A stretch of DNA of 64,000 nt, from positions 45,061,385-45,125,384 of the forward strand of contig NC_088295.1 of NCBI RefSeq assembly GCF_032854445.1. Reading direction: 5' to 3'. The notes under the pieces are model-generated. The model saw only the letters and a list, made by a program, of their open reading frames with translations. It was not told the DNA's origin and searched no databases. Position 1 is the stretch's first letter; every line of letters begins with the position of its first letter. Both the position numbers and the translations under genes were made by a program. This stretch comes from Liolophura sinensis. Its lineage: Eukaryota; Mollusca; Polyplacophora; Chitonida; Chitonidae. This document shows, one piece after another, positions 25,401-55,100 of the stretch.

Positions 25401-28400
25401 CTCCCAAGCTTAAGTCCAAAGGTGGAGTTGTACTGAACTTTTTTCCAGCATTTTATTTATGTGGGTTGTAATGCCTGATTCAAAAGGCCAGTCGTATTTG
25501 AAAGGCTCGCAGTTTTATTTTACTTTTTTGTGTGTGTTATTTTGGATATGGACTAATGCAGTAGTACACAAGTAAAGGTCACTCAAGTGGAACTGTACTT
25601 AACAGTAAAGTCCTTTTTTGCACTCTGGATGCCAAAATTGGTTATTGATTTTTTTTTGTGAGTAAATGATGACTGAAATACATTACCATAAATAAACAGA
25701 ACATGTGCCGGTTTATTTTCTTTTGAGCTCTTATTAGATATAAAAACTTTGTATTAATTTTTTTGTGTGTGTGTGTTTGCTTCTTAGACAGAATCATGTA
25801 GTGGGTGTGGTTTACTTGTTTGCTGAGGTCATCTCAACCTAAGCTAAGATGTGTAAGGTGACCTTTGAGTTTTGTCCTTTTATAGATGCGAGAGGTCATT
25901 GAATGGATCCGTGTATTTCATTTATGAGGCGTTGCCTTGTATGACAGTTTTTCCACCCTACTGGATTGTTTATAATTACAAAGCCACTTTGCCAGCATCA
26001 GTATGGTTCAGTGAACACACTGAAAGCATGTTTTTTCACTGACTTAACACATTTATAACATATTTATGTGAACAGTTTATATTTAAAATCTTTGTCAGTT
26101 GATGTTAAGAAGGGTAAAGAGCTTTGTTGTTAACCCATATACTACACTGCAAAAAACTTTTCACTTTTTCATCTTTCTGCCAAAATTGACATAGGGTCAT
26201 TATAGTGGTCGGTATTCGTCCGTCCTTCCATCCATCTGTCCACACTGTACATCTGCCTGTCCAGTTGAAGTCTTGAAAGCTTGTTGCCAGTTTTACCAAA
26301 CTTATACTACTTCTACACAAAGGCATTGGGAAGAGCCTTATTTAGTCACGGCAATATTGTCATATTTTTCTTTCAAGGTCATTGGAATTATTGAAGCTAT
26401 ATTTGCCTGAGGCTTTTAAACATATATCTTCAACGTTGTAAGAAATTTTCATCAAACTTGTACCGCATATGCAGATAGTCTTGTGGAGGCACCATATTGT
26501 TTTTCATCGACCTTAATCTTATTTCAAGGTCGGTGTGAATTCATTAACTTGTAAGGAATCTATTTCTGATGGTAAAAAATGTTTGTTTTGTGTAATCCAA
26601 GGACAGTTGAAGCTCAGAACAAAGTCTCTATATAAGTTGTTTGGAGTCTCTATATCAATGTGTTAGTGCCTGTTCTGCTTTGATTGAAAAATGATTTAAT
26701 TTGCAGGAGACAGTTATAATATGTGATAATGCAGGAGATGGTTAGTTAATTAAACATCCATATCCCAAGGTTAATATTGCCACTCAAGATAAAGTGGCAA
26801 GTCCCATAGTTGTCTTGTATCTCTGTCTTGACCTGCAGTTTATATGGTCTAAAATGCATGTAATGTCTCCAGTGGTGTACTGAAAGGTGTGTATTGCAAA
26901 CAACACATATGGATATTATCAAACAGGTTAGGAAGTAAATGTAGTTGACAATGATGTTTACATTGTATACAACACTATGTTGTATATAAATATCTGTTAT
27001 GGATCAGACAGAGTGTGGAAAACAGCTTAAAGTATGAAAAGCAAAATGATTTGAAATGCAGATTATTCAGATAATTATTTGCTTTCGAGTTGAAATTAGA
27101 GTTGATATTACTAATTTATTTCTACCAGATATTGCTTAAAATCATTATGTTACTTTTCATTTTTTTCTTGAGGGTTAAGGGCATGGCCAGGGAGAGACAT
27201 GTATGATTATTACAAAAACAGTGTTAAAGCACTGACATATATACACCGTAGGGTTGGAAGATAGGACTGGGGCAAAAGGTATATTGTGGGCCTACGTACA
27301 GTATTACCCTAATTCCTCAGTCTTTTTGCATATGAAAGAACAATTTTTAGTGCAATTTATGCACAAAAACTACAAAAGTTAGATTGGCCATTTTCAGGGC
27401 TTCACAAAAGTATAATTATATCAGTCTACACAGGACAAAGAGTTCAGAGTATGCTTGAATAAAAACCATGGAAACAGGCAAACAGGTTGAAGAATTACAG
27501 TACTAAAGCATTGTCATTTTCCCCCAAAAACCTTTTACCTCACACTATGCACTAGTTGTCATATGCATGAAGGTTGGGGGACAGTCCTGAAAAACCAAAG
27601 AGTGAAGTTCAATGAACCCTTTCATTATGGCTGCATGGTTGGAAGCTTTAGGGTGTAAAGGTAGTGAGGTAGGCTAGGCACGAAGCACTGGGAGAGTTGT
27701 TAACTAGGTCTGAATAGCTGGAACATGTGTTAATTATGGCCTGAATAACTGGAACATGTGTTAACTGTGGCCTGAATATCTGGAACATGTGTTAACTATG
27801 ACCTGATTAACTGGAACGTGCTATGACATGAATAACTGGAACATGTGTTAATTATGGCCTGAATAACTGGAACACTTGTTAACTATGGCCTGAATAACTG
27901 GAACACGTGTTAACCATAGACTGAAAAACTGGAACACTTGTTAACCATGGCCTGAAAAACTGGAACACTGGTTAACCATGGTCTGAAAAACTGGAACACT
28001 TGTTAACTATGGTCTGAAAAACTGGAACACTTGTTAACCATGGCCTGAAAAACTGGAACACGTGTTAACCATGGTCTGAAAGACTGGAACACGTGTTAAC
28101 CATAGACTGAAAAACTGGAACACTTGTTAACCATGGCCTGAAAAACTGGAACACTGGTTAACCATGGTCTGAAAAACTGGAACACTTGTTAACCATGGCC
28201 TGAAAAACTGGAACACTTGTTAACCATGGTCTGAAAAACTGGAACACTTGTTAACCATGGTCTGAATCACTGACACAATTGTTGGCCATGGCTAGATTCA
28301 CTGACACACTTGATAGCCATGGGCATGTGGGAAGGTCTTCCAGCATCCTGCAGATTGTCGTGGATTTCCTCTGGGCTTTGCCTGGTTTTCTCTTACCATA

Positions 28401-31400: not shown

Positions 31401-34400
31401 TGTGTCGTTTCAGATTTGAGGAAGCACATGGATAAACTCAACCATCACCAACAAATTGGTTTAAAGTAAGTGTAGTAATTTCAAGGACACTTAACTTTCT
31501 AAGATCGTAAAAAAGTCATTATGAAATGTACCTTTCAAAAAAAAATTCCCCAATAAAACCACGGGTAAAAGTACAGATTTACAGCTTGATGTGGAGGTGA
31601 ATATCTTTGTGTCACATGTGGAAAGTTAAAATGTAATGCATCAAATAAAATAAATAATCAAATAAAATCAAATAATCAAATAAATAATGCATTTAAGAAA
31701 TCATGCAACCATCATCCTTCTAGTTATGAGCTTTGCTCATCAGACCTTTAATTAACAAGACAGTAGAGGAAGCAGAGGCGGAAAACACTGCTGAAGTTTA
31801 GTTGGCCCTCTTTAGAATATGGTTTTGTCTTTGTTCAGGAAAACCATTTCTAAGTCATTGGTTGGAAAAGGAAAAGAAGGTAATCGTTTGTCACAAAAAT
31901 CACAGTACGTACATGTACGTGTCTTTGGCCTGTATTGATTTACCTTCACTGTTTTTTATTTTTTATTTTCAGACATTTTGAAGATTTTGAAAAACGAATT
32001 CCAAGAGCAGAGATGGAACAACTTCAGGTAAATCATTGTTCGATTGATATTTTTTACAGAATTATTTGTGTTATGGTTAGTAATAAAAGCATAACCTGAT
32101 GAGCTAGGGGAATCAGGCTAGGATTGAACCAACACTCTGTGTGTCCAGGCATGCAAGATGCTGGAAGACACGTATCTTAATCATTAAGCCGTAACTTGTA
32201 ACTTCTTAACTATTGCTTAGCTGGAGCATTTGCATCACAGAATTAAAGAATGTATGAATTCAGAGCTATACGGACATGTATTGCTGTACTATGGTAGTTT
32301 GCATTTGAAAACATTGACTAGTGTCATTACTTTTGAACATGATAAATGTATACTCGTTTGATTTTCAGAAAATAGTCACAGATGCGATAAAGAAGCTAGA
32401 TGATGAATATGAAGGTCGTGTGTGTGGCAGCTTCAGGAGAGGTGAGAGAATGAGTTCATTTGTATCAGTATCATGGCCAATCGATTGGTGGGTGTTTATT
32501 TGGCTGTCTGTATGCCCGTTTGTCTGTCTGTATGTATGCCCATTTGCTCTGTCTGTATGCCCGTTTGTCTGTCTGTCAGGAACTTTAAGGTAAAAAAGTT
32601 ATGCAAGGATTTTGATGAAATTTTGTGGACAGGTTGGCCTTGGGCTAAGGATCAGTCCATTCAGTTTTTGTCTAGGAATTTTTAAGACGATATTCATTGA
32701 GATATAGAATGGAGCAGAGTATTGTACTAGTGTCTGTAGTGTGGGAATGCTATGAAGTACTTAATTTTCACATGGAACTAATTTTTGTGTATTTTGCGTA
32801 AAAAATTCCAGTATTAAATACATTACATTACAGGTTGAAGTATTAAAAGAAATGATATCTTCGCTGGGCTGGAAGGTGCTGGGATAAGAAAGCCCGGCAG
32901 GAAGCTAAATTTTAACAGCAGGGAGGGATACTTAGAATATATGTATGCCAACTCTGGTGATAGGGCTTGGTGGGTATAAAAGAAAGCGGGAGTTCATTTC
33001 TCTTGAGTTTTATCAATCTTTGGTGTGCCGATAAAGCATGTAAAGTGAAAGAAAAGTAAATACAAACGTGTTGGTATATGTTCGTATGCCGTTAAACGGT
33101 GTAAAGTGACAGGAAAGTGAATACAAACATGTGCTGGCATGTGTTGATATGTGTTAGTATGCTGATAAAGCGTGTAAAGTGAAAGAAAAGTAAATACAAA
33201 CATGTACTGGCTTCCAGTGGATGTCACTTTGATGTCATGTTATCCCATTGGCTCTGTTTCTCCTGTGGACCAACGAGTGAGCTTCTAAAAAACTGTAAAC
33301 TGTGAACAACAACCCAATGGCCGTTTGACAGGTACGGCAGTGGTAATGGTTTCTGACCGACTATAGGGGATGGTTAAAACCAAAAACAATCCAAAACTAG
33401 TCATGTTGATGAAAATTAATCATCAAAGGTGTGAAAACAAGTGACACCTGTTTAAATACTGCTCAGGGTAGGTGCGAAAGTAATCTTACATGGTGATAAT
33501 CCATCCCCCATTGTGTTAATCTCTGATCCAGACTACGATGATTAGCGAACTGCAGGAAACAAAAGAGGATTAGAGCCACAAACGATAATACCTGTTTGAC
33601 GTGCTTGAGTCATTTCGGCCCTATTATAACTAGGAAAATTAAACACAAAAAAGATTTTTTTCCGCATTGCTTTGATTAAATAAGTGAAAATTAATTCCCA
33701 TGAAACCATTTTTGAAGGAAGTCTATGAAAATAAATTCTAGTCAATAATGAGAACATTACTGTGCAGAGATTTGCACTCTCGGAGTGCCTTTTATATTGT
33801 GACTGCTTTGTTGAAATATGAAAAATGGCAGCTTCATCTGCTTGATGTCATATCTTTTGTTGTAAGTGCTCAGCTTCACAGTGATATTTCATTCCTGTTT
33901 AGCCCAACAAAGTACTAAATTACTAGGATATGTTTTATTTCATGCATATTTAAATTAAATTAAAAATTATTGAATTAATTGAAAAGGTGTGTTTAATTAC
34001 TCCCAGGTGCTGAATCCAGCGGTGATATTGACATCTTGTTAACTCATCCCAGCTTTACATCAGAGAAGAAAAAAATGGTGAGACAAATATTTGACTGGTT
34101 GAAAAATGACCATGCTAAAGAAAACTTGAATTTTACTGCAGAACATATTATCAAAGGTTGACTGAAACAAAACATTCACTGAATGAGTTGGATGCTGATA
34201 ATAAAAAAAGCAAAATTGTTAGTAAAGTGATTTGGAAACATTTTAGTACAAATATACTGATAAAAAAAGATGTCATTGTCTATGTGTATTATATACATTG
34301 TGTGAAGTAGAATAAGACAGTAGAATAATTTTAATATGTCAAAGCTATTAACAGAGAGATGCACATGTGATACTGTTGTATCACTCCACTAAGATTTATT

Positions 34401-37400
34401 TATTTATTTGGTTGGTGTTTTACACCGTACTCATGAATATTTCACTTATGCGACAGCGGCCAGCATTGTGGTGGAAACTGGGCAGAGCCCATGGGAAACC
34501 ATGACCATCCGCAGGTTGCTGGCAGAAGTTCTCACGTACGGCCGGAGAGGAAGCCAGCATGACAATCTACTAAGATATCTCAACATTGAATTGCTAAAAA
34601 ACAAACATTCATCCATTCAAGCTCTTCATTATCACTTTCTTTGATTGCTCTTTGTGTGCATTTCACATCTTTTCATTTGGCATATTTCATATTGTTCATG
34701 TGTTTCTGTTTTAGCCAGTTTTGTTACACAATGTTGTGAAGGAACTGGAAGGCATTAAGTTTGTAACCGATCAACTTTCTCTAGGTGACACCAAATTTAT
34801 GGTAAGTAACACTTATTCCAGTAAAATGTTTAAACTTAAACTACATAAACTAAGAGGCTTCAGGTGATGAGTTTGAGATGTTGTAGAAAGATAAAGACAA
34901 ATGATAATATTTTGCGTATGAATTTCACCTGTCCACAAGGTATATACAGTGGGGATATGTACGTTGTGTATGTAATGTGAGACTATCATATTACCACTCG
35001 TATTGTTTGCTTAAAATGTATTTCATGTTTTATTACCAATGAAAGATATGCAAATAATTGGTCAGTCTTCTTCCCATACAGTGTGTTATCGATAAAAAAG
35101 ATGCAGGTGGGAGCATGTTTTTTAGTTTCATGAAGTGTCTGATTTTTAAAGCACACGATTATGTAGATCTTTTTCCATCATCTCAACTGTTTTAACTCAC
35201 GAGTGACCATGGAAATGGTCTTTTCACATCTTTGTGAATATTGAAATATTCTTTGGTTGCTTTTTAATCCTAATTTTGTAAAACATTATTGCTCTTTGTG
35301 TGCATTTCACATCTTTTCAAGACTCTGTTTGGGACCGTTACGTATCTTTATGTTTTTTCCAAACAGGGTGTATGTAGACTTCCCAAAGGTGATGGTGATG
35401 ATGAACCAAGCTACAGAAGAATCGACATCAGGTAATACAGTTGCATTGATATGTATTATTGTCTGTCAAATCAGTGTAAGCTTTGTCAATTGTGCAAGAG
35501 TTGTCTCCCCTTCTGTTATCTGCACAACTTATTAGTCCAACATGTTAAAGTTATGATAAGTTTTCGTCCACCCTAACCAGTAATAAACCCACCCACTGAT
35601 AAAAATGGCTGCCATCGTATAAGTGGAGTGTTTTTCAGTATAGTGTTTAACTTGAATTCAATAGATAAACAAATAACATAATTTATATAAAGGATAAAAG
35701 AAGCACCTTATGTAACTAAAAATATAACAAAATTCTGCCAGTGAATTGCAGATGGTCATGAATTTCCCCCAGTTTCTGTTTGTATCAGTGAAATATTCTT
35801 GAGTATAGTCTGAAATACGAAACAAATAAATAAATGTGTTAAACTTTAAGATATGCAAATTAAACAGAGGCCACTTAATAATGCTTGCAAATACTGTGTA
35901 GTATTTGTCCTACTTTCCTCAGACAGATTCCCCATGACGAATGTTCCCCAGCACAGGATCACTGTGCCTTGTTATAAATACTGTGTATTGACCTACCTTC
36001 CTCATACAAATTCCCCATGACGAATGTTCCCCAGCACAGTATCACTGTGCCTTGTTATAAATACTGTGTATTGACCTACCTTCCTCATACAAATTCCCCA
36101 TGACGAATGTTCCCCAGCACAGTATCACTGTGCCTTGTTATAAATACTGTGTATTGACCTACCTTCCTCATACAAATTCCCCATGACGAATGTTCCCCAG
36201 CACAGTATCACTGTGCCTTGTTATAAATACTGTGTATTGACTTACCTTCCTCATACAAATTCCCCATGACGAGTGTTCCCCAGCACAGTATCACTGTGCC
36301 TTGTTATAAATACTGTGTATTGACCTACCTTCCTCATACAAATTCCCCATGACGAATGTTCCCCAGCACAGTATCACTGTGCCTTGTTATAAATACTGTG
36401 TATTGACCTACCTTCCTCATACAAATTCCCCATGACGAATATTCCCCAGCACAGTATTACTGTGCCTTGTTATAAATACTGTGCATTGACCTGTCTTTCT
36501 CAGACAGGTTCCCCATGACGAATGTTCCCCAGCACAGTATCACTGTGCCTTGTTATAAATACTGTGCATTAACCTGTCTTTCTCAGACAGATTCCCCATG
36601 ATGAATGTTCCCCAGCACAGTATTACTGTGCCTTGTTATAAATACTGTGCATTGACCTGTCTTTCTCAGACAGGTTCCCCACAGCGAGTGTTCTCCAGCA
36701 CAGTATCACAGTACCTTGTTATAAATACTGTACATTAACCTGTCTTTCTCAGACAGATTCCCCATGACGAATGTTCCCCAGCACAGTATTACTGTGCCTT
36801 GTTATAAATACTGTGCATTGACCTGTCTTTCTCAGACAGGTTCCCCATGACGAATGTTCCCCAGCACAGTATCACTGTGCCTTGTTATAAATACTGTGCA
36901 TTAACCTGTCTTTCTCAGACAGATTCCCCATGACGAATGTTCCCCAGCACAGTATTACTGTGCCTTGTTATAAATACTGTGCATTGACCTGTCTTTCTCA
37001 GACAGGTTCCCCACAGCGAGTGTTCTCCAGCACAGTATCACAGTACCTTGTTATAAATACTGTGCATTAACCTGTCTCTCTCAGACAGATTCCCCATGAC
37101 GAATGTTCCCCAGCACAGTATCACAGTGCCTTGTTATAAATACTGTGCATTAACCTGTCTTTCTCAGACAGGTTCCCCATGATGAATGTTCCCCAGCACA
37201 GTATTACTGTGCCTTGTTATAAATACTGTGCATTAACCTGTCTTTCTCAGACAGGTTCCCCATGCCGATTGTTCCCCAGCACAGTATCACTGTGCCTTGT
37301 TATAAATACTGTGCATTAACCTGTCTTTCTCAGACAGATTCCCCATGACGAATGTTCCCCAGAACAGTATTACTGTGCCTTGTTATAAATACTGTGCATT

Positions 37401-40400
37401 GACCTGTCTTTCTCAGACAGGTTCCCCATGACGAATGTTCCCCAGAACAGTATTACTGTGCCTTGTTATAAATACTGTGCATTGACCTGTCTTTCTCAGA
37501 CAGGTTCCCCATGCCGATTGTTCCCCAGCACAGTATCACTGTGCCTTGTTATAAATACTGTGCATTAACCTGTCTTTCTCAGACAGATTTCCCAAGACGA
37601 GTGTTCCCTAGCACAGTATTACTGTGCCTTGTTATAAATACTGTGCATTTACCTGTCTTTCTCAGACAGGTTCCCCACAGCGAGTGTTCTCCAGCACAGT
37701 ATCACAGTACCTTGTTATAAATGCTGTGCATTGACCTGTCTTTCTCAGACAGATTCCCCAAGCTGAGTGTTCCCCAGCACAGTATTACTGTGCCTTGTTA
37801 TAAATACTGTGCATTGACCTGTCTTTCTCAGACAGGTTCCCCATGCCGATTGTTCCCCAGCACAGTATCACTGTGCCTTGTTATAAATACTGTGTATTGA
37901 CCTACCTTCCTCATACAAATTCCCCACCATAGTATCACTGTGCCTTGTTGTAAATACTGTGCATTGACCTGTCTTTCTCAGACAAATTGCCCACGCCGAG
38001 TGTTCCCCAGCACAGTATTACTGTGCCTTGTTATAAATGATGTATATTTACCTGTCTTTCTCAGTCAGGTTCCCCACTCCAAGTGTTCCCCAGAACAGTA
38101 TCACAGTGCCTTGTTATAAATGCTATGCATTGACCTGTCTTTCTCAGACAGATTCCCCATGCCGAGTGTTCCCCAGCACAGTATTACTGTGCCTTGTTAT
38201 AAATGCTGTGTATTGACCTGTCTTTCTCAGGCAGGTTCCCCACACCAAGTGTTCCCCAGCACAGTATTACTGTGCCTTGTTATAAATACTGTGTATTGAC
38301 CTACCTTCCTCATACAAATTCCCCACCATAGTATCACTGTGCCTTGTTGTAAATGCTGTGCATTGACCTGTCTTTCTCAGACAGATTCCCCACGGCGAGT
38401 GATTCACTGTGTATTGACCTACCTTCCTCATACAAATTCCCCACCATAGTATCACTGTGCCTTGTTGTAAATGCTGTGCATTGACCTGTCTTTCTCAGAC
38501 AGATTCCCCACGGCGAGTGTTCCCCAGCACAGTATTACTGTGCCTTGTTATAAATGCTATGCATTTACCTGTCTTTCTCAGACAAATTCCCCATGATGAG
38601 TGTTCCCCAGCACAGTATCACAGTGCCTTGTTATAAATACTGTGCATTAACCTGTCTTTCTCAGGCAGGTTCCCCACACCAAGTGTTCCCCAGCACAGTA
38701 TTACTGTGCCTTGTTATAAATACTGTGTATTGACCTACCTTCCTCATACAAATTCCCCACCATAGTATCATTGTGCCTTGTTGTAAATGCTGTGCATTGA
38801 CCTGTCTTTCTCAGACAGATTCCCCATGGCGAGTGTTCCCCAGCACAGTATTACTGTGCCTTGTTATAAATGCTGTGTATTTACCTGTCTTTCTCAGACA
38901 GATTCCTCATGCTGAGTGTTCCCCAGCACAGTATTACTGTGCCTTGTTATAAATGCTGTGCATTTACCTGTCTTTCTCAGACAAATTCCCCATGATGAGT
39001 GTTCCCCAGTGCAGTATTACTGTGCCTTGTTATAAATGCTATGCATTTACCTGTCTTTCTCAGACAAATTCCCCATGATGAGTGTTCCCCAGCACAGTAT
39101 CACAGTGCCTTGTTATAAATACTGTGCATTAACCTGTCTTTCTCAGGCAGGTTCCCCACACCAAGTGTTCCCCAGCACAGTATTACTGTGCCTGGTTATA
39201 AATGCTGTGCATTTACCTGTCTTTCTCAGACAAATTCCCCATGATGAGTGTTCCCCAGCACAGTATCACAGTGCCTTGTTATAAATACTGTGCATTAACC
39301 TGTCTTTCTCAGGCAGGTTCCCCACGCCAAGTGTTCCCCAGCACAGTATTACTGTGTCTTGTTATAAATGCTGTGCATTGACCTACCTTCCTCAGACGGG
39401 TTTCCCACGCCGGGTGTTCCCCAGCACAATATTACTGTGTCTTGTTATAAATGCTGTGCATTGACCTACCTTCCTCAGACGGGTTTCCCACGCCGGGTGT
39501 TCCCCAGCACAGTATTACTGTGTCTTGTTATAAATGCTGTGCATTGACCTACCTTCCTCAGACGGGTTTCCCATGCCGAGTGTTCCCCAGCACAGTATTA
39601 CTGTGCCTTGTTATAAATGTTATGCATTGACCTGTCTTTCTCAGACAGATTCCCCATGCCGAGTGTTCCCCAGCACAGTATTACTGTGTCTTGTTATAAA
39701 TACTGTGTATTGACCTGTCTTTCTCAGACAGATTCCCCATGCCGAGTGTTCCCCAGCACAGTATTACTGTGCCTTGTTATAAATACTGTGCATTGACCTG
39801 TCTTTCTCAGACAGATTCCCCATGCCGAGTGTTCCCCAGCACAGTATTACTGTGCCTTGTTATAAATACTGTGTATTGACCTGTCTTTCTCAGACAGATT
39901 CCCCATGCCGAGTGTTCCCCAGCACAGTTTTACTGTGCCTTGTTATAAATGCTGTGCATTTACCTGTCTTTCTCAGACAAATTCCCCATGATGAGTGTTC
40001 CCCAGCACAGTATCATAGTGCCTTGTTATAAATGCTGTGCATTGACCTACCTTCCTCAGACGGGTTTCCCATGCCGGGTGTTCCCCAGCACAGTATTACT
40101 GTGTCTTGTTATAAATGCTGTGCATTGACCTACCTTCCTCAGACGGGTTTCCCACGCCGAGTGTTCCCCAGCACAGTATTACTGTGCCTTGTTATAAATA
40201 CTGTGCATTGACCTGTCTTTCTCAGACAGATTCCCCATGACGAATGTTCCCCAGCACAGTATTACTGTGTCTTGTTATAAATGCTGTGCATTGACCTACC
40301 TTCCTCAGACGGGTTTCCCATGCCGGGTGTTCCCCAGCACAGTATTACTGTGTCTTGTTATAAATGCTGTGCATTGACCTACCTTCCTCAGACAGATTCC

Positions 40401-42441
40401 CCATGACGAATGTTCCCCAGCACAGTATTACTGTGCCTTGTTATAAATACTGTGTATTGACCTGTCTTTCTCAGACAGGTTCCGCACGCCAAGTGTTCCC
40501 CAGCACAGTATCACAGTGCCTTGTTATAAATGCTGTGCATTGACCTGTCTTTCTCAGACAAATTCCCCATGACGAATGTTCCCCAGCACAGTATTACTGT
40601 GTCTTGTTATAAATGCTGTGCATTGACCTACCTTCCTCAGACGGGTTTCCCATGCCGGGTGTTCCCCAGCACAGTATTACTGTGTCTTGTTATAAATGCT
40701 GTGCATTGACCTACCTTCCTCAGACAGATTCCCCATGACGAATGTTCCCCAGCACAGTATTACTGTGCCTTGTTATAAATACTGTGTATTGACCTGTCTT
40801 TCTCAGTCAGGTTCCGCACGCCAAGTGTTCCCCAGCACAGTATCACAGTGCCTTGTTATAAATGCTGTGCATTGACCTGTCTTTCTCAGACAAATTCCCC
40901 ATGACGAGTGTTCCCCAGCACAGTATCACAGTGCCTTGTTATAAATACTGTGCATTAACCTGTCTTTCTCAGACAAATTCCCCATGATGAGTGTTCCCCA
41001 GCACAGTATTACTGGGTCTTGTTATAAATACTGTGCATTAACCTGTCTTTCTCAGACAAATTCCCCATGATGAGTGTTCCCCAGCACAGTATTACTGGGT
41101 CTTGTTATAAATGCTGTGCATTGACCTGTCTTTCTCAGGCAGGTTCCCCACGCCAAGTGTTCCCCAGCACAGTATTACTGTGCCTTGTTATAAATGCTGT
41201 GCATTGACCTGTCTTTCTCAGACAAATTCCCCATGACGAGTGTTCCCCAGCACATTATCACTGTGCCTTGTTATAAATACGGTGTATTGACCTATGTTTT
41301 TCAGACTGATTCGCCACTACTAGTATTGTGGTGACGTTCTGTGTTATTGACTTGTCTTTCTCTGACTGATTCACCGCAACCAGTATTGCTGTGCCTTGTT
41401 ATAAACGTTCTATGTTATTGTCTTGTGTCTCTCAGACTGATCCCTCACGACCAGTATTACTGTGCCCTGCTGTACTTCACGGGCAGTGACCAGTTTAACA
41501 AGCACATGAGAGGCATTGCCCTAGAGCAGGGATTCACCCTCAATGAGTACAGTATTAGACCCATGGGCAGCACGGGTGAGTGAAGCTAGTACTGGTATCC
41601 TATTGGTCTGTAAATGTTTGAATGGAACCTTTCTTCCTTGAATATTTTGATTTTGAACAGCAAGACAAGTTTTCTAATTTGCTTAACTGAAAATGGTGGG
41701 AATAACACAACAACATCAACAACAGTTTTCTCATTAGGAAGATGTCAGGCTGGTCTGATACACAAGGCACCTTAGCTGAAAATGGTGAAATATTCTTTAG
41801 TGAAAACATATTACATTTAGTGCTTTTCATCATTGACCCAACTTGTTAATACAAGAATCATCCAAGTCCTGCAATCATGCTTGCATGCTAAATCGGAATG
41901 GTTTCAAACTTATTTGGCCTTTAGACTTTGCCATAGGACTGAAATTCTGAAATTAAACTTTCGCTGTAGCGGTTCATTTAAGTAGTTTATTAAGTAGATG
42001 TCCTTGCCAAAGTGGGCTGGTTTCCTTGTGGCCTTAACATTGTTCTTCCACTCATAAACCTGGGCCCAATTTAAAAAACTACACATAGCACTACGTACAC
42101 ATAACTACCATGGCAACGTAATACCTACAGTACTGGTTGCCATGGAAATTACATCCATGATGGCCATTGATGAAGGGTAATTATGCAATCTTTAATGTGT
42201 ATACATAAATGTGCCGTGAAGATATTGTATATACTCTGAATGAGTGCATAATAAATGTTGAAATATTAAATCTTCTCTCTAATTGTAAATGTGAATACAG
42301 TATGAATCTCTGAACTGAATCTCTCTTGGACTTTGTTGTTGTACAGGTATTCCTGGTGAACCTTTACCTGTATCCAGTGAGGAGGACATATTTGATTACG
42401 TAGGAATGAAGTTCAAAAAACCAAAAGACAGAAATTTATGA
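22420..42441 (+). CDS. POLB: DNA polymerase beta (complete, 13 coding exons)
   Basis: Nuclear base-excision-repair polymerase that removes the 5'-deoxyribose phosphate and fills one-nucleotide gaps. Exons: 22420-22483, 23812-23936, 28922-28996, 29729-29787, 30732-30781, 31414-31465, 31973-32027, 32369-32441, 34007-34077, 34715-34801, 35367-35431, 41436-41575 and 42347-42441. The total is 1011 nt, 336 residues (335 in human). The 8-kDa lyase domain keeps the Schiff-base lysine (Lys73 in KKIDEF) and the HKY and VYRKAA segments; the first helix-hairpin-helix is GIGDKIG and the second GVGPAAAAKF. Catalytic metal ligands are Asp191 and Asp193 (GDIDIL) and Asp257 (RRIDIR). The nucleotide-pocket block [13 protein letters not shown] is intact. 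All introns are GT-AG. Intron 11 is filled by an 83-bp minisatellite made of copies of the exon 12 acceptor region. Confidence 0.97.
22484..23811. other. POLB intron 1
   Basis: Contains a tRNA-like SINE head at 22860-22935 and a hairpin at about 23406-23445 (CCACACTGACA and its complement). Otherwise nothing is recognised. Confidence 0.65.
22860..22935 (+). mobile_element. tRNA-derived SINE head
   Basis: Box A-like GGTGTAGTGGTATAAGC and box B-like GAGTTCAAATCC, spaced as in a tRNA. The cloverleaf pairing is poor, so it is a retroposon remnant rather than a tRNA gene. Confidence 0.5.
23812..23936 (+). CDS. POLB: POLB coding exon 2
   Basis: Residues 22-63, starting [20 protein letters not shown] and ending KSGEEAKKL; lyase domain. 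The acceptor is TTTGTTTCAG and the donor is GGTACGTC. Confidence 0.96.
24735..24950 (+). mobile_element. SINE-A, long copy with tRNA-like box B
   Basis: Opens with CACCAATGCGGTCGCTGTGA, box B-like GAGTTCAAATCC, the GGCTTCCTCTCCGGCCGTAC block, the conserved body and an (AAAT)n tail. The flanks ATTTTGTATC and ATTTTGCATC may be a one-mismatch target duplication. Confidence 0.87.
24971..24998. repeat. Short perfect hairpin
   Basis: GCATGACAGT and its exact complement ACTGTCATGC separated by 8 bases, just after a SINE tail. Significance unknown. Confidence 0.6.
25200..25371 (+). mobile_element. SINE-A, 5'-truncated, with exact 12-bp target duplication
   Basis: AATATGGAACAC occurs at 25200-25211 and 25360-25371, around a SINE 3' body (CACCATAATGCTGGCCGCCG) and (AAAT)n tail. 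High identity to the consensus suggests a recent insertion. Confidence 0.9.
26160..26560 (+). repeat. Diverged dispersed repeat with simple-sequence head
   Basis: A CGTCCGTCCTTCCATCCATC head is followed by TTTCAAGGTC segments at 26373 and 26523. A stretch of similar style (GTCTGTCTGTATG head, then GTTATGCAAGGATTTTGATG) lies at 32490-32700. The element class is not identified. Confidence 0.4.
27306..27501 (+). mobile_element. MITE-like element, family M1
   Basis: Left end CCCTAATTCCTCAGTC, right end GGTTGAAGAATTACAGTA. The ends are inverted repeats, with a possible TA target duplication. The core has AGTTAGATTGGCCATTTTCA and GGGCTTCACAAAAGTATAA. About 196 bp. Confidence 0.72.
27700..28310. 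repeat. 31-bp minisatellite
   Basis: About 19 copies of a 31-bp unit containing GTTAACCATGG, CTGAAAAA and CTGGAACAC. The left copies are the most diverged (TGAATAACTGGAACATG). It lies in POLB intron 2 and is not derived from a neighbouring exon that I can see. Confidence 0.93.
28314..28485 (+). mobile_element. SINE-A inserted in the edge of the 31-bp array
   Basis: Body with CCATAATGCTGGCTGCCGTT and an (AAAT)n tail. TAGCCATGG occurs on both sides (28315-28323 and after the tail), so it landed inside a satellite unit. Confidence 0.82.
28574..28745 (-). mobile_element. MITE-like element, family M1 (reverse orientation)
   Basis: Begins CTGTAATTCTTCAACCTC, the complement of the M1 right end, followed by TTTGCATG and an M1-like interior on the minus strand. 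The far end is degraded. Confidence 0.6.
28922..28996 (+). CDS. POLB: POLB coding exon 3
   Basis: Residues 64-88, starting [20 protein letters not shown] and ending EKLEK. It contains the first helix-hairpin-helix and Lys73, the dRP-lyase nucleophile. The residue before the hairpin is Asp where vertebrates have Pro. The donor GGTTATTA is weaker than usual. Confidence 0.95.
28997..29728. other. POLB intron 3 with degraded tRNA-type SINE
   Basis: A tRNA-like head at about 29283-29350 (box B-like GGGTTCAAACC) and a SINE-A-like 3' part near 29535-29620 (CCCATGAAACTGTCATAAGT) suggest one old SINE across most of the intron. Confidence 0.55.
29729..29787 (+). CDS. POLB: POLB coding exon 4
   Basis: Encodes [19 protein letters not shown] plus two bases of Gly108. 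The acceptor is TTTTGCAG and the donor is GGTATGTT. Confidence 0.94.
29788..30731. other. POLB intron 4
   Basis: Mostly occupied by a MITE-like element (29969-30363). A diverged SINE-A-like fragment lies near 30495-30620 (ACTGTCATGGTATAAGTAAA), and a GT/G-rich run at 30133-30152. Confidence 0.6.
29969..30363. mobile_element. MITE-like element with about 30-bp terminal inverted repeats
   Basis: Left end GGGAGTTGATTCCACAAAGC; the reverse complement of the right end reads GGGGCTGATTTCACAAAGCC. Both continue into a TTCTGACT block. The interior is non-coding and has internally repeated AAATTTTGA/GATTTTGTAG-type stretches. It lies in POLB intron 4. Confidence 0.7.
30732..30781 (+). CDS. POLB: POLB coding exon 5
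   Basis: Encodes [17 protein letters not shown] plus the first base of Asp125; it completes the second helix-hairpin-helix (GVGPAAA). The acceptor follows a long T tract (TTTTTTCTCAG). Confidence 0.94.
30782..31413. other. POLB intron 5 with tRNA-type SINE
   Basis: At about 31170-31260 a tRNA-like head has box A TGGCTGAGTGG and box B GGGTTCAAATCC, and is followed by a SINE-like body to about 31390. Nothing else is seen. Confidence 0.6.
31414..31465 (+). CDS. POLB: POLB coding exon 6
   Basis: Encodes [17 protein letters not shown] plus two bases of Lys142. The acceptor is TGTCGTTTCAG and the donor is GTAAGTG. Confidence 0.95.
31466..31972. other. POLB intron 6
   Basis: Contains an AAATAA-rich simple repeat at 31640-31690. 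Nothing else is seen. Confidence 0.6.
31973..32027 (+). CDS. POLB: POLB coding exon 7
   Basis: Encodes [19 protein letters not shown] (residues 142-160), a highly conserved POLB block. The acceptor is TTTTATTTTCAG and the donor is GGTAAATC. Confidence 0.96.
32028..32368. other. POLB intron 7
   Basis: Contains a weak reverse tRNA-like fragment near 32110-32195. No other feature is recognised. Confidence 0.5.
32369..32441 (+). CDS. POLB: POLB coding exon 8
   Basis: Starts [20 protein letters not shown] and ends SFRR plus one base of Gly185. The GSFRRG motif belongs to the nucleotidyltransferase fold. The donor is GGTGAGAG. Confidence 0.96.
32442..34006. other. POLB intron 8
   Basis: Holds a (GTCT)-rich stretch at 32495-32580 that opens a diverged dispersed repeat to about 32700, and a short tandem array at 33020-33225. 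No gene is recognised. Confidence 0.6.
33020..33225. repeat. Three-copy tandem repeat of about 60-75 bp
   Basis: Three units each carry GTAAAGTGA, then a GGAAAGT or GAAAAGT block, then ATACAAAC(A/G)TG. They start near 33022, 33089 and 33167. Confidence 0.75.
34007..34077 (+). CDS. POLB: POLB coding exon 9 (two catalytic aspartates)
   Basis: Residues 185-208, starting [20 protein letters not shown] and ending KKKM. Asp191 and Asp193 correspond to human Asp190 and Asp192. The acceptor is ATTACTCCCAG and the donor is GGTGAGAC. Confidence 0.97.
34387..34580 (-). mobile_element. SINE-A in POLB intron 9
   Basis: TTTATTTATTTATTTGGTTG tail side, body to GCCGGAGAGGAAGCCAGCAT. CACTAAGAT on the left and TACTAAGAT on the right may be the target duplication. 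Confidence 0.85.
34644..34675 (+). repeat. 32-bp direct repeat, copy 1 (before exon 10)
   Basis: Identical over 32 bp to 35288-35319 (core CTCTTTGTGTGCATTTCACA). It ends 39 bases before exon 10 and is pyrimidine-rich. Confidence 0.9.
34715..34801 (+). CDS. POLB: POLB coding exon 10
   Basis: Residues 209-237, starting [20 protein letters not shown] and ending LSLGDTKFM; phase 0 at both ends. The acceptor is TCTGTTTTAG and the donor is GGTAAGTA. Confidence 0.96.
34802..35366. other. POLB intron 10
   Basis: No mobile element is recognised. It carries the second copy of the 32-bp direct repeat at 35288-35319. Confidence 0.65.
35288..35319 (+). repeat. 32-bp direct repeat, copy 2 (before exon 11)
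   Basis: An exact copy of 34644-34675. It ends 47 bases before exon 11. Confidence 0.9.
35367..35431 (+). CDS. POLB: POLB coding exon 11 (third catalytic aspartate)
   Basis: Starts [20 protein letters not shown] and ends with Ile258 and two bases of Arg259. Asp257 in RRIDIR is the third metal ligand. The [10 protein letters not shown] loop is variable in the family. The donor is GGTAATAC. Confidence 0.96.
35432..35884. other. First part of POLB intron 11 with two degraded SINE-A fragments
   Basis: SINE-A-like 3' bodies at about 35580-35680 (ATGGCTGCCATCGTATAAGT) and 35738-35836 (GTGAAATATTCTTGAGTATA, then an AAATAAATAAAT tail). The minisatellite begins right after. Confidence 0.65.
35885..41435 (+). 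repeat. 83-bp minisatellite made of POLB exon 12 acceptor copies
   Basis: About 66 head-to-tail copies; the early spacing is exactly 83 bp. A typical unit has CCTGTCTTTCTCAG, then ACAGATTCCCCATGAC, then GAATGTTCCCCAGCA, then CAGTATTACTGTGCC, then TTGTTATAAATACTGTGCAT. It aligns with the true exon 12 boundary, which reads CTTGTGTCTCTCAG, ACTGATCCCTCACGAC, CAGTATTACTGTGCC, apart from the 15-nt insert. Translated in the exon frame, a unit gives [18 protein letters not shown] and then TAA, against [17 protein letters not shown] in the gene. The first seven or so units have CTCATA in place of CTCAG; most later units keep the acceptor AG. The last two units before the exon lack the 15-nt insert and are 60-71 bp, like an ancestral form. 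Some units are shortened (near 37915, 38320, 38400, 38750). Confidence 0.96.
41436..41575 (+). CDS. POLB: POLB coding exon 12
   Basis: Residues 259-305, starting [20 protein letters not shown], then [20 protein letters not shown] and IRPMGST. It holds the Tyr-Phe-Thr-Gly-Ser hinge and the Asn and Arg of the nucleotide pocket. The acceptor TTGTGTCTCTCAG is effectively the last unit of the upstream minisatellite. The donor is GGTGAGTG. Confidence 0.96.
41576..42346. other. POLB intron 12
   Basis: No repeat or gene recognised. Confidence 0.6.
42347..42441 (+). CDS. POLB: POLB coding exon 13 with stop
   Basis: Starts [20 protein letters not shown] and ends [11 protein letters not shown], then TGA. 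GEPLPV and DIFDY are the conserved POLB C terminus. The acceptor is TTGTTGTACAG. Confidence 0.96.
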
Positions 42442-45324: not shown

Positions 45325-45730
45325 ACAGTGATAACTCAGTTGTACACAGGGATGGAAACACAATGGAAACTCACTAGTACACCCCAGCTGTACACAGGGA
45401 TGACAGTGTCATACACAATGGAAACTTACTGGTACACCTCCGTTGTACACAGGGAAGACACTGCCCCACAAAATGGGATCTCGCTAGTACACCTCAGCTG
45501 TACACAGGGATTACAATACAACTTTGTGGTACACTGGGATAACTCAGTTATAAACAGGGATGACTTCACTATACACAACTCTTATTGTACATAGAGACAA
45601 CTCACTCGGGTATGTCAGTTACACATAAAAATTACTCCATTGTACATTGGTAACCAAGTTGTACACAGTCATAACTCAATTACTGGTATACAAAATGATA
45701 ACTCAAATTGTACACTGCATAATTTGATCA
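45325..45730. repeat. Imperfect 50-bp tandem repeat
   Basis: Units of about 49-56 bp around CAGTTGTACACAGGGATGAC and CACTAGTACACC; about 7 copies, increasingly diverged to the right. It lies in the POLB/4E-BP intergenic region. Confidence 0.75.
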
Positions 45731-49110: not shown

Positions 49111-52100
49111 CTACAAAATAAAAAAAGTATTTTATTTTTTTTTTTATCCGAGTGAATTTATGAAGCAATAGAGTACCTTTTCTGTTGCCATGGTGACTCA
49201 GGTCCAAGCCCGCTTGGCAACTGTTCTCTAGTAATACATGAGGACTTCTGGCCGGAAGTTGTTCTGGCAAAAAGCAGGAATGAATAATAGATTGCATAAG
49301 ACTGAAAGCTTTCCCATAGTGCCATTAATCTTCATCAAACTGTTCGCATAAGAAAGAGGAAATTTCAGTGCAGTTCATGTACACTCTTAATTTGATTTTG
49401 GAGTAAAAACTACATTGGTTGGTTTGGCCAGTTTCAAAAAAAGTATAATTTTATTATTCAACACAGAGTAAAGCCTTCAGAATATGCTTGCATAACCACC
49501 ATGCAAATATGTGCATAGGCTGAAGAATTACAAAATTTCACTGCCTTGTCATGTGATCTTCTTAATTTATGATCATCAAAAACAACTCAGTTGCAAAAAA
49601 AAAAAAGGTAAATCTCCATGTAGTTCCACATGCACCTGACAAAATAATATCTAGGTTTACAAGGAAGATTTATATGTGATCAGAAATGATCTTGGCATGT
49701 ATATTATGACCTTGAAGAGACAAATGGTAACTAGACGATCAAGAGGTGAAAGCAGAGACTGCTAAATGTCAGGAAATGGCCAAATAATATGCAAAATTTA
49801 GAAAAGCGTACATAATTTGCCAGGACATTCATAAGAGACAAACCAAAATCCTGAACTCCAAATGAATCTCGCAAGCTCTCATCTCTGTTCACAACATGGC
49901 AGTTACCTGGTGTCTTGTTATCTCCGCCTTTGGGCTGCTCACTCCCGTTCTCCTTGGGTGTGCTCATTTCACCAGGGCTGGTCACTCCGGGAATCACAGC
50001 CATGTTGGCCGGCGGGCTTCTGGTCAGTGGTGAGTTTCTACACCGCAGGAGGAAGGCTCTATCATAGATCAGCCTTGTGCCTGAGGACAGATAATGTAGT
50101 TGATAGTAGTACTGCACAAGTGGAAGGCTCTATCATAGATCAGCCTTGTGTCTGAGGACAGATAATGTAGCTGATAGTAGTACTGCACAAGTGGAAGGCT
50201 CTATCATAGATCAGCCTTGTGCCTGAGGACAGATAATGTGACTGATAGTAGTACTGCACAAGTGGAAGGCTCTAGCCTTGTGCCTGAGGACAGATAATGT
50301 AACTGATAGTAGCACTGCACAGGAGGCGGCTCTATCATAGATCAGCCTTGTGGCTGAGGATAGATAATGTAACTGAAAGTAGTACAGCACAGGTCGAAGG
50401 CTCTGTCATAGATCAGCATTGTGCCTGAGGACAGATAATGTAACTGATAGCAGCACTGCACAGGAGGAGGCTCTATTATAGATCAGCCTTGTGCCTGAGG
50501 ATAGATAATGTAACTGAAAGTAGCACTGCACAGAAGGAAGGCTCTGTCATAGATCAGCCTTGTGCCTGAGGACAGATAATGTAACTGATAGTAGTATTGC
50601 ACAGGTGGAAGGCTCTATCATAGATCAGCCTTGTGCCTGAGGATAGATAGGACACAGACCCCCATTACAACTTCCGTTTTTCAGTAGGGACGATTGTAGT
50701 TCTGTGTATTTTAGGGTGTAAAGTCTTTTTTTGCTGCCAGCCTGCCGTTTTTGGTGTACAGGTGCATGCTTGGTATCAAAATGATGGAAATTGTCTAAGC
50801 TTTGGGCAGGTATGAGTTTTAATGGTGAAAGTTTGAAATTCTGGGCGAGAGGACACAAGGAGACAGGTGGTGATGAGGCCGTGAGTGACGTCCCCTTGGC
50901 GTTGCTAGGCACCCCTGCCAGCTGCCGGCATGGATAGGTCCAGATTTTGACGGTCAACCTATGTCAAGATTTTTACAGCTTCTTTCTCACAGGCTGGGCC
51001 AGGTATGCACCAAAGCTTATTGGCCTCGGAATGTTTGGGACGGAGCTACAGCGCTGAACGTTTACATTGTCGCTTATGGAAAACTAATGGGGGTCTGTGG
51101 CCTGATCTGTCCACTTGTGCCAAAACATGTAATACGTCACTGTGTGCTCAGATCTCGCAGCAGCCTGATAATATTTGGTGGGTACATCTGCGATGTGGTT
51201 TGCATTGACATGGAACTTGATTGAGCAGTTTTAAAGCTTTTTAATTCTATATTTTCCCCACATATCCATTTTGTCTAAAAATCGGCTAAAACGCTCTGTG
51301 GTCAAGGGTAGTACAGGAGTATAAACAGACTGGAACAAACACAGACAACGTTTCATTGTTCCTGGTTTTTAAAATGTCTCTTTTGGGGCTGACATTTGAT
51401 AAATAATGCAAAATTTGAGTGCTGCGAGTGAAATTGGAGTATGTGGCTGATAGATAGGGTGGTGTGATTAAGGATGGTCAATAAGGCCTTGCATCACATA
51501 TAAGGGCCCAGCCTCACACAGGTGGATAAAAACACATCAGCAGATTAATTTACTTGGCTAGAGTAGTAGAGAGGGCCAGTGTGCATTTAATTTACAAACC
51601 AAGTCAGGTTCCTCCCATGTGTGCCACCACACACTAGGTAAATGTGCTTCAAATCATCCTGCAGGTCACAAAACATTAAAAACAGGCATCTCTGCTGCAA
51701 CACTGTCTGCTGTTTTGGGCATAGACTTGAAGTGGACAAGGTAAATTTTCCTCTTTAAACTTAAAAATAAACCACTGTAGGCATGTAGTTTTCATTGCAT
51801 GTGTATATTCATTCCTCTGACAAGTTACATGTGCACTCACACAGTATGTGTGGCGTTGGAACAAAAATGATCAATTTCAAGTTTCTAGCATACATGTAAG
51901 TGTGATCTGTTGGAATATTGCCCTTGTGAAAATGAGTCTCTGCCCCACCAGGTGTCTGTTTCTCCACCAGAACATAGTACGCTGTTCCTGCGACATCTCA
52001 AGGAGTTTTTGTTTTAGTATCTGGCCCAGTGTGGCATCCACCTCCCTGGGCAACTGGGATTTTTTTTATGTTTCCAATGTCCTCACACACAAGTTAGAAA

Positions 52101-55100
52101 TTAGACAGCTACATATGGCTTTCACATCCTAGTTTAATACCTACTGAGCTTTCGTCTTGGTTTCCCTCTTTAGATCTTGTCTCCCAAACATGGCGTCAGT
52201 GAACTTTGCCTGGTTTATGCATATACTGAACTGGGATCTACCTAGGTGAGTGGGGTCTGCTAGCCGTTCAGCTTCCTCAAAGGCCTAACCATTCGGATGC
52301 AGTATTCCACTCCCTTGGCCGACCTAGAATCCCCGTCATTGGTCCGGTACTAGACCATGACACATACCCCTCCAGAACCCCCCCCCCCCAACCGGGGAAA
52401 CGTCACAGGTTTCTCATATATGTACGGACAGTTTGAATGTCCATTCCTCATGCCCACCCAGGAACACCCAGTGTAGAACCTGATTACGGATGTAATTTCT
52501 CACTGATTATTTGAGGATTTCTGTGTTGTTACAGGTTAAAAAGTATAGCTTTTCTTCTCTTCTTGGGTCCCTTCAACATGTCTTGGGAGGGTTGCCTTGC
52601 TGACTGTCTGAATGACCAATGTGCATGTACTGTGTGGCTTTATTTTTGTAAGTGGCAAATTCATATTTCTCCCCTCTACTTATCTCTTGTAGAGTGAGTG
52701 AGTGAGTGCTTGGGGTTTAACGTCGTACTCAACAATTTTTCAGTCATATGACGACGAAGGAATCATTAGGGTGCATGTACGTGTAATGTGGCTTCTTGTT
52801 GCAGGACGGATTTCCACCGCTCTTTTATTTAGTGCTGCTTCACTGAGACGACTTACCGAAGGCAAGTAAGCAGCCCCGCCCGAGCCATTATACTGATACG
52901 GGTCAACCAGTCGTTGCACTATCCCCCTTCATGCTGAATGCCAAGCGAGGAAGTTACAACAGTCTTTTCTTTAGCCCTATCCATGGAAATTGTGCCTATG
53001 AGCATTTCTATATCAATTTGGATGCATATGTTTACTTTGATGGTGATCAAAATGTACTTTTCTGGAATTCTGAAACTCCGCTTTGCTACCCACCTGTATC
53101 ACTTTAAGTCAAATTTTGCACAAAGTTGCTAAAAGGTATGTCCTATATTTTGTAAGTGAATTGTCAGATAAATTACCTGTCTTTTGATATATATTTTGAC
53201 ACTTTTGGCTTTTAAGTATTTTCTTAACACTGCTGTAAACAAGAAAATCTACTTGAAAATCCATAATTTTCTATATGTTTGTCAATGGTAAATGTAAAAT
53301 ACTTTGTCATTGGAATTTTTTCATTTTTCTTGCAGATATACATACCAGCTTTCCAAAACATTTGACCTGGTTGAGATATTTTGAACGGTATGTGCACTAC
53401 AGAGCTTTGAACTTCGTGCTTGAGGACGGACAAACAGACACATTTCCAAGATAGGGGTACCCCAAGTTAAATTCCTCCTACTCAAAAGTTTTTGCATGTA
53501 TCAAGCTGTAACTTTATGTGTGAGGTTTAGAGGTAGTAAGCATTATGTGGTGCAAAAATTATTGATTTTGAAAAAAGTTGGCTGGTGTGATAGGACACAG
53601 ACCCCCATTACAACTTCCGTTTTTCAGTAGGGACGATTGTAGTTCTGTGTATTTTAGGGTGTAAAGTCTTTTTTTGCTGCCAGCCTGCCGTTTTTGGTGT
53701 ACAGGTGCATGCTTGGTATCAAAATGATGGAAATTGTCTAAGCTTTGGGCAGGTATGAGTTTTAATGGTGAAAGTTTGAAATTCTGGGCGAGAGGACACA
53801 AGGAGACAGGTGGTGATGAGGCTGCGAGTGACGTCCCCTTGGCGTTGCTAGGCACCCCTGTCAGCTGCCGGCATGGATAGGTCCAGATTTTGACGGTCAA
53901 CCTATGTCAAGATTTTTACAGCTTCTTTCTCACAGGCTGGGCCAGGTATGCACCAAAGCTTATTGGCCTCGGAATGTTTGGAACTGAGCTACAGCGCTAA
54001 ACATTAACATTGTCGCTTATGGAAAACTAATGGGGGTCTGTGGCCAGATAATGTAACTGAAAGTAGTACAGCACAGAAGGAAGGCTCTGTCATAGATCAG
54101 CCTTGTGCCCGAGGACAGATAATGTAACTGATAGTAGTACTGCACAGGTGGAAGGCTCTACCATAGCACAGCCTTGTGCCTGAGGACACATTTAATGTAG
54201 CTGATAGTAGAGCAGCACAGGAGAAAGCTTCTAACGTACCGCATAGTGGAACAGTGGATGAGAAAGGCTCTATCACAGATCAGCTTTGTGTATGTGGACA
54301 GTTACTTTAACTGATAGTTGTATGACACAGGAAGAGGGCTCTACCATAGATCAGTTTTGTGCCTGATGACAGATAATATAACTGATAGAAGTTCAGCACT
54401 GGAGAATGGCACTTTCATGGATCAGCTTTGTGCACATGGACAGATGATGTACATGTAACTGATAGCAGTACGCAGGATAAAGGCTCTACCATCGATCAGC
54501 ATTGTGCATGAGGACAGATAATGTAACTAATAGTAGAACAGCACAGAGAAAGGTTCTAATGTAACTGATAGTAGTTCAGCACTGGAGAAAGGCTCTTTCA
54601 TAGATCAGCTATGTCCATGTGGACAGACAATATAGCTGATAATAGTACTGCACAGGAGACCGGCTCTTTCATAGATCAGCATTGGGCATATGGACAGATA
54701 ATGTAACTGTTAGTCATACAACGCAGGAAAAAGGCTCTACCATAGATCAGTTTTAACAGTATAGCCCAGGACCATACAACAGCCTTGTGCCCGAGGACAG
54801 ATAATGTAACTGATAGTAGTACAACGCAGGAGGAAGGCTCTACCATAGATCGACCTTTTGCCTGGGGACAGATAATGTAACTGACAGCAGTACAGCGCAG
54901 GAAAAAGGTTCTACCATAGATCAGCTTTGCATGGGGATGATGTAACTTACAGCTGCACAGAGCAAGAGAATGGTCCTACCATAGATCATCTTTGTTCCTG
55001 TTACCGGCCCCGCTAGCACAGTTCGGGAGTGGTAAATCCAGGGTCAATCCTGGGTTGAGTCACTCCTAAGACTTTAAAAGAGGAAGTTGCAGCTTCCTCG

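Follow-up and report, generated by a model that had tools for sequence, protein, structure and literature searches.

Intron 11 of the POLB gene of a chiton contains a long ladder of look-alikes of the exon 12 acceptor, which is probably a minisatellite of the mirage type: the edge of the exon would have been duplicated in tandem, amplified neutrally and tolerated through use of the exon-proximal acceptor. The host genome was published as that of Liolophura japonica, a name later corrected to L. sinensis. The window analyzed here is a 64-kb stretch of this genome, and the POLB exons are numbered as in the first-pass annotation of this DNA. The features are listed in the table.

Table. Features of the POLB and 4E-BP arrays, in window coordinates.
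Feature	Position	Strand	Remarks
POLB exon 11	35367..35431	+	ends ...RRIDI + AG; donor GTAATA at 35432 (sequence reading)
66 decoy acceptor units, ~83 bp	35922..41303	+	acceptor ends 35922 to 41221
Build of a decoy unit			pyrimidine tract; (C)AG or CAT; block resembling the exon, 15-nt insert included; TAA (60/60 full-length units)
Two insert-free copies, then the real acceptor	41275..41435	+	acceptor ends 41304 (TTCAG) and 41364 (CTCTG)
Real acceptor of POLB exon 12	41416..41435	+	TGTCTCTCAG
POLB exon 12, source of the unit	41436..41575	+	donor GTGAGT at 41576
4E-BP exon with eIF4E-binding stretch	49907..50080	-	real acceptor ending at 50081; PF05456
71-bp acceptor-side array of 4E-BP	50046..50649	-	
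Diverged additional copies of the 4E-BP unit	54041..55010	-	

The first-pass annotation had placed about 66 copies of the acceptor at 35885-41435, and both TRF and reading of the individual copies confirmed that the array is real at that place. Using TRF, an 83-bp period was found to span 35913-41316 and a 71-bp period 41334-41466, the latter extending into exon 12. The intron is 6004 bp long, with 491 bp between the donor and the first decoy, whose unit (acceptor end 35922) was identified by eye. The number 66 stands for the ~83-bp units; together with two diverged insert-free copies revealed by sequence reading, 68 decoys lie upstream of exon 12. The spacing of the units is cut to 67 or 51 bp in five cases. 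As had been claimed, most copies keep the AG: it is retained in 57 of the 68 (56 CTCAG and one TTCAG) and absent in 11 (ten CTCAT and one CTCTG), and the units with CAT for CAG include six consecutive ones near the 5' end of the ladder. Read in the frame of the exon, every decoy (68/68) is followed by a stop within 68 codons, and codon 19 is TAA in all 60 full-length 83-bp units. These 60 units have a mean identity of 0.893, and 15 of 1770 pairs are identical.

Alignment of the consensus unit to the real junction gave a local score of 40, compared with a maximum of 30 in 2000 dinucleotide shuffles and a top score of 26 for the other segments of the window (4642 comparisons with overlapping 100-bp segments on both strands). 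The alignment leads from the pyrimidine tract over the CAG into about 34 nt of the exon, and the 15-nt insert appears in it as a single gap. The insert-free copies score 38 (41304) and 58 (41364) against the real junction, and the latter, the copy nearest to exon 12, is the most junction-like of all. Thus, both the proposed match of the unit to the exon 12 boundary and its described difference from the gene, an in-frame insert plus a stop, hold. A search of the genome (an assembly of 632 contigs) with a two-unit query returned 36 matches, all inside the array, a search that weak matches may escape; within this limit it revealed no dispersed copies of the kind expected from a dispersed satellite or a mobile element. 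No second haplotype contig was matched in this one assembly. Chance-level alignment and abundance of the unit elsewhere in the genome had been named beforehand as findings against the proposed origin; the score lay above all shuffles and the genome matches were exclusively local.

Exon 12 must have come first, because its residues align throughout (46 of 46) with PDB chains of pol beta (best E 8e-19) and it holds the start of the thumb (PF14791). The direction given by the first-pass annotation, from the exon to the satellite, was borne out by the conservation of this coding block in pol beta of other animals and by the insert-free copies between exon and array. The thumb model matched once in the window and four times on contig C6; by our reading the four matches on C6 belong to other family-X genes and POLB is single-copy in this genome. 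A search with the palm model PF14792 failed to detect this POLB, which the thumb model did detect, because its exons are short. In agreement with the earlier description, the product of splicing to a decoy would end after the residue which we take to be the third catalytic Asp and would lack most of the thumb. Taken together, these comparisons support an origin of the ladder from the exon 12 boundary.

The insert-free copies beside the exon, of which the nearest is the most junction-like, point to an order of duplication, gain of the insert and amplification. About 71 bp across the junction of intron 11 and exon 12, comprising the pyrimidine tract, the AG and about 34 nt of the exon, would have been duplicated in tandem, so that the downstream original remained exon 12 and the upstream copies ended up in intron 11. 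One copy would then have gained the 15-nt insert and become the founder of the 83-bp unit, and this founder would have been amplified to 66 copies via slippage or unequal exchange in the direction away from the exon. The ladder would be tolerated because splicing in practice takes the exon-proximal acceptor. We infer this order of events, the mode of amplification, its neutrality and the correct splicing. What speaks against neutrality is that none of the 60 full units varies at the five positions around the TAA.

The decoys were scored with a matrix built from 47 acceptors of the host genome; 13 of these had been read by hand, and the other 34 were picked automatically, partly by pyrimidine content. 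With this matrix the 57 AG decoys score between 6.1 and 13.1 with a median of 9.9; the median of the hand-read genuine acceptors, left out one at a time, is 8.9, and 347 AGs of the POLB introns stand at -4.9. The real exon 12 acceptor scores 13.6, a value that none of the 57 decoys reaches. Using a matrix of the 13 hand-read sites only, the decoys have a median of 6.5 versus 8.4 for the genuine sites, and one of the 57 reaches the score of the real acceptor (12.9). Within the scanned range a yTnAy motif is present in all 68 decoys, in 67 of them 15 nt upstream, and absent at the real exon 12 acceptor and at three of ten other POLB acceptors. Judged by these scores and motifs, the decoys appear usable, and position must play a part. 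As the AG decoys score like genuine sites, the harmlessness of the ladder is not obvious.

Poison or decoy exons present an acceptor followed by an in-frame stop. The POLB units share this arrangement, but lack a good 5' splice site: among 460 GTs in the array the best, two in number, match six of nine donor positions in a simple consensus count, by which the ten real POLB donors score 6-8. Since no GT exceeds six of nine, the units are poor candidates for poison exons, and an acceptor and a donor flanking a stop-bearing segment were not found in them. When mean diversity was compared across the 60 full units, the acceptor block had 0.11, the 17 positions that open the exonic part 0.20, the insert 0.06, the 20 positions that follow it 0.07, and the five positions around the stop zero. 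The acceptor block is therefore not the part of lowest diversity and shows no special conservation that would speak for selection on it. Outside the five-position TAA region 39 of 78 positions are likewise invariant; the invariance around the stop could reflect a function, or else chance together with common ancestry of the units.

A second case was found in the next gene, 4E-BP (PF05456), which lies on the opposite strand. Upstream of its exon for the eIF4E-binding stretch, 71-bp units duplicate the acceptor and the opening codons. Seventeen of these upstream copies exceed the ungapped threshold and ten have an intact AG; in a search of the genome with the 4E-BP unit, ten of ten matches fell inside the 4E-BP arrays. 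The array (within 49907-55010, minus strand) consists of two blocks about 3.4 kb apart, which are flanked by near-identical stretches at 50640-51000 and 53560-53950, as if a segment within the array had been duplicated.

To estimate the frequency of such arrays, exons were sampled by protein family, irrespective of repeats: 30 loci from 50 TCP1 matches, 21 from 21 proteasome matches and 28 from 80 matches to mitochondrial carriers. The 79 loci correspond to 75 distinct exons after joining L053/L056/L063, L055/L074 and L062/L069, the matches of which lie in one open frame. Self-comparison flagged eight of the 79 loci, and after reading, six of the 75 exons had copies of the splice site together with exonic sequence. 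The copies are located at the donor side of L007, L015, L018 and L050 and at the acceptor side of L067 and L073; L067 carries a short donor-side set in addition. The splice signal is intact in 10/10 copies at L007, 6/6 at L018, 3/5 at L050 and 4/5 at L015, in 9/15 acceptor and 2/2 donor copies at L067, and in 22/22 acceptor instances at L073, the real one included. Locus L015 was counted on the basis of BLAST and reading, as its TRF array lies 78 bp away from the match. For replication, 11 loci were taken from 57 matches to ubiquitin-conjugating enzymes, and none of the 11 showed boundary copies. The pooled samples comprise 86 distinct exons, six of which have boundary copies (7.0%; Wilson interval 3.2-14.4%); in this figure, exons that belong to the same gene lack independence (L007 and L015 are 1.4 kb apart). 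Five further loci were rejected: the copies at L079 are purely intronic, those at L016 and L060 repeat the acceptor signal of the intron but hardly any exonic sequence, or none, and were not counted, and the arrays at L014 and L057 are merely near an exon.

Some of the sampled loci show features of their own. The mitochondrial-carrier exon of L067 (match 1501-1725) has copies on both sides, about 15 of the acceptor and two short ones of the donor. At L073 (~99-1539) each 65-bp unit combines an acceptor with a 39-nt block in frame and a donor-like end GTGTGT; the units resemble a row of potential cassette exons, the use of which would leave the protein untruncated. Downstream of the proteasome exon of L050 (1633), some decoy donors (GTACGT, GTATGT) look closer to the consensus than the real GTTCGT. 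At L008 (1736-3139) the intron behind a TCP1 exon is taken up by a 48-bp array as far as the locus extends.

The placement of arrays was analyzed in 205,723 merged bases of the first three families, 8.0% of which are covered by 30 arrays (minimum period 20, minimum copy number 2.5). An array was regarded as straddling when between 12 nt and one unit of it reached across an exon edge, and the expectation was obtained by random placement that spares exons. An overlap of 12 nt or more with a protein match was seen for eight TRF arrays; two of them, at L016, were set aside because the match overruns the exon. The remaining six of 30 (L007, L018, L050, L067 twice and L073) compare with 1.28 expected (P 0.0012), and five remain without the 12-nt case of L067 (P 0.007), in a test that uses a simple null model and was devised post hoc. 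In the replication sample the single array found does not straddle an exon edge. Arrays thus apparently straddle exon edges more often than under random placement, with a frequency estimated from a small sample and a replication of 0/11.

Other readings of the POLB ladder were weighed against this background. Splicing into the ladder could be regulated and yield a truncated POLB mRNA that is removed by NMD, by which the amount of polymerase would be tuned. The AG in 57 of 68 decoys, the stop after each of the 68, the match of the AG decoys to genuine sites in score and the TAA that is invariant in 60/60 full units are what such a switch would look like. However, CAT replaces CAG in 10 of 68 decoys, including the six-unit run near the 5' end, no good donor exists among the 460 GTs (best 6/9, twice), special conservation of the acceptor block is lacking, and the same structure occurs at donor sides and in unrelated genes; we consider regulation unlikely. 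Because the same arrangement is formed by unrelated sequence in 4E-BP and in 6 of 86 exons, on either exon side, a function specific for POLB is not needed. From the three roles offered in the first-pass annotation, a neutral slippage product fits best, and neither a splicing sink nor a regulated NMD switch found support; a regulatory role of the ladder is not supported. It is very unlikely that the decoy AGs are masked in a hairpin (CUGUC/GACAG) selected so that the real site is chosen, even though structure prediction gave a strong fold that would hide most decoy AGs. For 249 nt of the array the predicted fold is better than that of every one of 200 shuffles (z -6.3). With 50-nt flanks, G-1 has a mean unpaired probability of 0.08 in the decoys, compared with 0.35 for the real acceptor, 0.38 for ten other POLB acceptors and 0.22 when the flanks are shuffled. 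This fold is without covariation, with a score of 0.088 versus 0.085 in shuffles and 78.7% versus 78.8% paired cells (66 units, 27 distinct rows). Moreover, prediction has the real acceptors of 4E-BP and L073 just as hidden, and as the units descend from one founder, their agreement is a single observation. Hairpin masking was therefore rejected.

An error of the assembly, in which the array is misassembled or its length is wrong, was considered as well. According to the available part of PMC11068029 the assembly is based on 14x HiFi data with a mean read length of 8,347 bp, so that few reads would span 5.5 kb and the flanks, and a false concatemer of the mitochondrial genome is present on contig C99. 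Nevertheless, differing units (mean identity of the 60 full units 0.893, 15/1770 pairs identical) anchor the assembly, and similar arrays shorter than 1.5 kb exist elsewhere in the genome. An artefact is highly improbable; the copy number of the POLB array in the assembly may be wrong. The reverse history, an older satellite from which exon 12 was built, would account for the sequence likeness as such, yet exon 12 encodes a block conserved in the pol beta chains of the PDB and the unit was found at no other genomic place, save for weak matches that may escape the search. We give this history next to no credence.

Further repeats were recorded in the window and the assembly. Six other arrays of the window (13131-14531, 27697-28292, 33026-33205, 45337-45515, 58823-58947 and 60655-60739) were rejected as mirages: the unit matches shown, up to eight per array and checked against the POLB exons, lie within or beside the arrays and none on a POLB exon. 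The array at 13131-14531 consists of long 29/58-bp minisatellites beside a minus-strand gene with Pfam matches below the cut-off; this gene presumably resembles glutamine-fructose-6-phosphate transaminase. A SINE-like stretch ending in AAATAAATAAAT recurs, by eye, at about 24.7, 25.2, 28.3 and 34.4 kb of the window. On contig C99 COX1 is matched seven times, mostly at intervals of about 15.5 kb, which indicates that the mitochondrial genome was assembled as a tandem concatemer; COX1 is free of stops in the invertebrate mitochondrial code and not in the vertebrate code.

As copies of an exon edge are present by the dozen in the intron, splicing must pick the correct site among look-alikes. The POLB ladder is thus a natural experiment on splice-site choice, with dozens of acceptors that score like genuine ones and the correct one at the exon, and if POLB is spliced accurately, position must outweigh sequence. 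Tentatively, we suggest that mirages, rather than being peculiar to cephalochordates, could occur throughout the genome of a chiton, at several percent of its exons, which would extrapolate to thousands of junctions. They would arise or persist at splice junctions more often than by chance, and some units, as at L073, would be nearly ready cassette exons. If this reading is true, the genome would maintain a reserve of new exons and introns and would naturally test how the spliceosome chooses between dozens of equivalent sites. Should the frequency in the sample prove general, minisatellites across exon boundaries may often furnish the material for new introns and exons, an idea put forward for amphioxus globins (PMC3087553, available part), and may be a trap for the annotation of mollusc genes.

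Minisatellites across an intron-exon boundary have been described as mirages in amphioxus, in Adh3 and in the globins BflGb6 and BflGb9, where RT-PCR suggests that splicing is unaffected; we refer here to the available part of PMC3087553. No report of mirages in molluscs was found in the literature searched, the coverage of which was partial, and in a term look-up the accessible text of a paper on five chiton genomes (PMC12005716) contained neither "minisatellite" nor "tandem repeat". Within this literature, the phylum and the frequency are new and the kind of structure was already known.

Similar boundary minisatellites with potential splice sites are the variable internal tandem repeats of human segmental duplications (PMC2812944, available part). 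These have units of 30 bp on average in about four copies, lie in recent paralogs and come with transcript evidence for new introns, whereas the POLB array is long, resides in a single-copy gene and is known here from genomic sequence alone. Intron gain by tandem duplication (Rogers, cited in PMC3087553) also involves a duplication that carries splice signals, but in POLB an existing intron was enlarged and no new intron was seen.

The agreement with the amphioxus mirages, as far as described in the available part of PMC3087553, is closer. In both, tandem repeats cross the intron-exon boundary and end in the authentic exon, the ~83-bp POLB unit is within the range of 10-160 bp, and the AG or GT is found in many but not all units (57/68 in POLB). 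Either exon boundary can carry an array in amphioxus and in this chiton, and inner units are homogenized (0.893 in POLB) while edge units are diverged, as are the insert-free copies 41304 and 41364. The POLB ladder differs in its host, a chiton (Mollusca), in its 68 upstream copies versus six and three in two BflGb6 haplotypes, and in the in-frame insert of its unit. By these testable structural features, the POLB ladder would be a mirage in another phylum, longer than the globin examples (PMC3087553).
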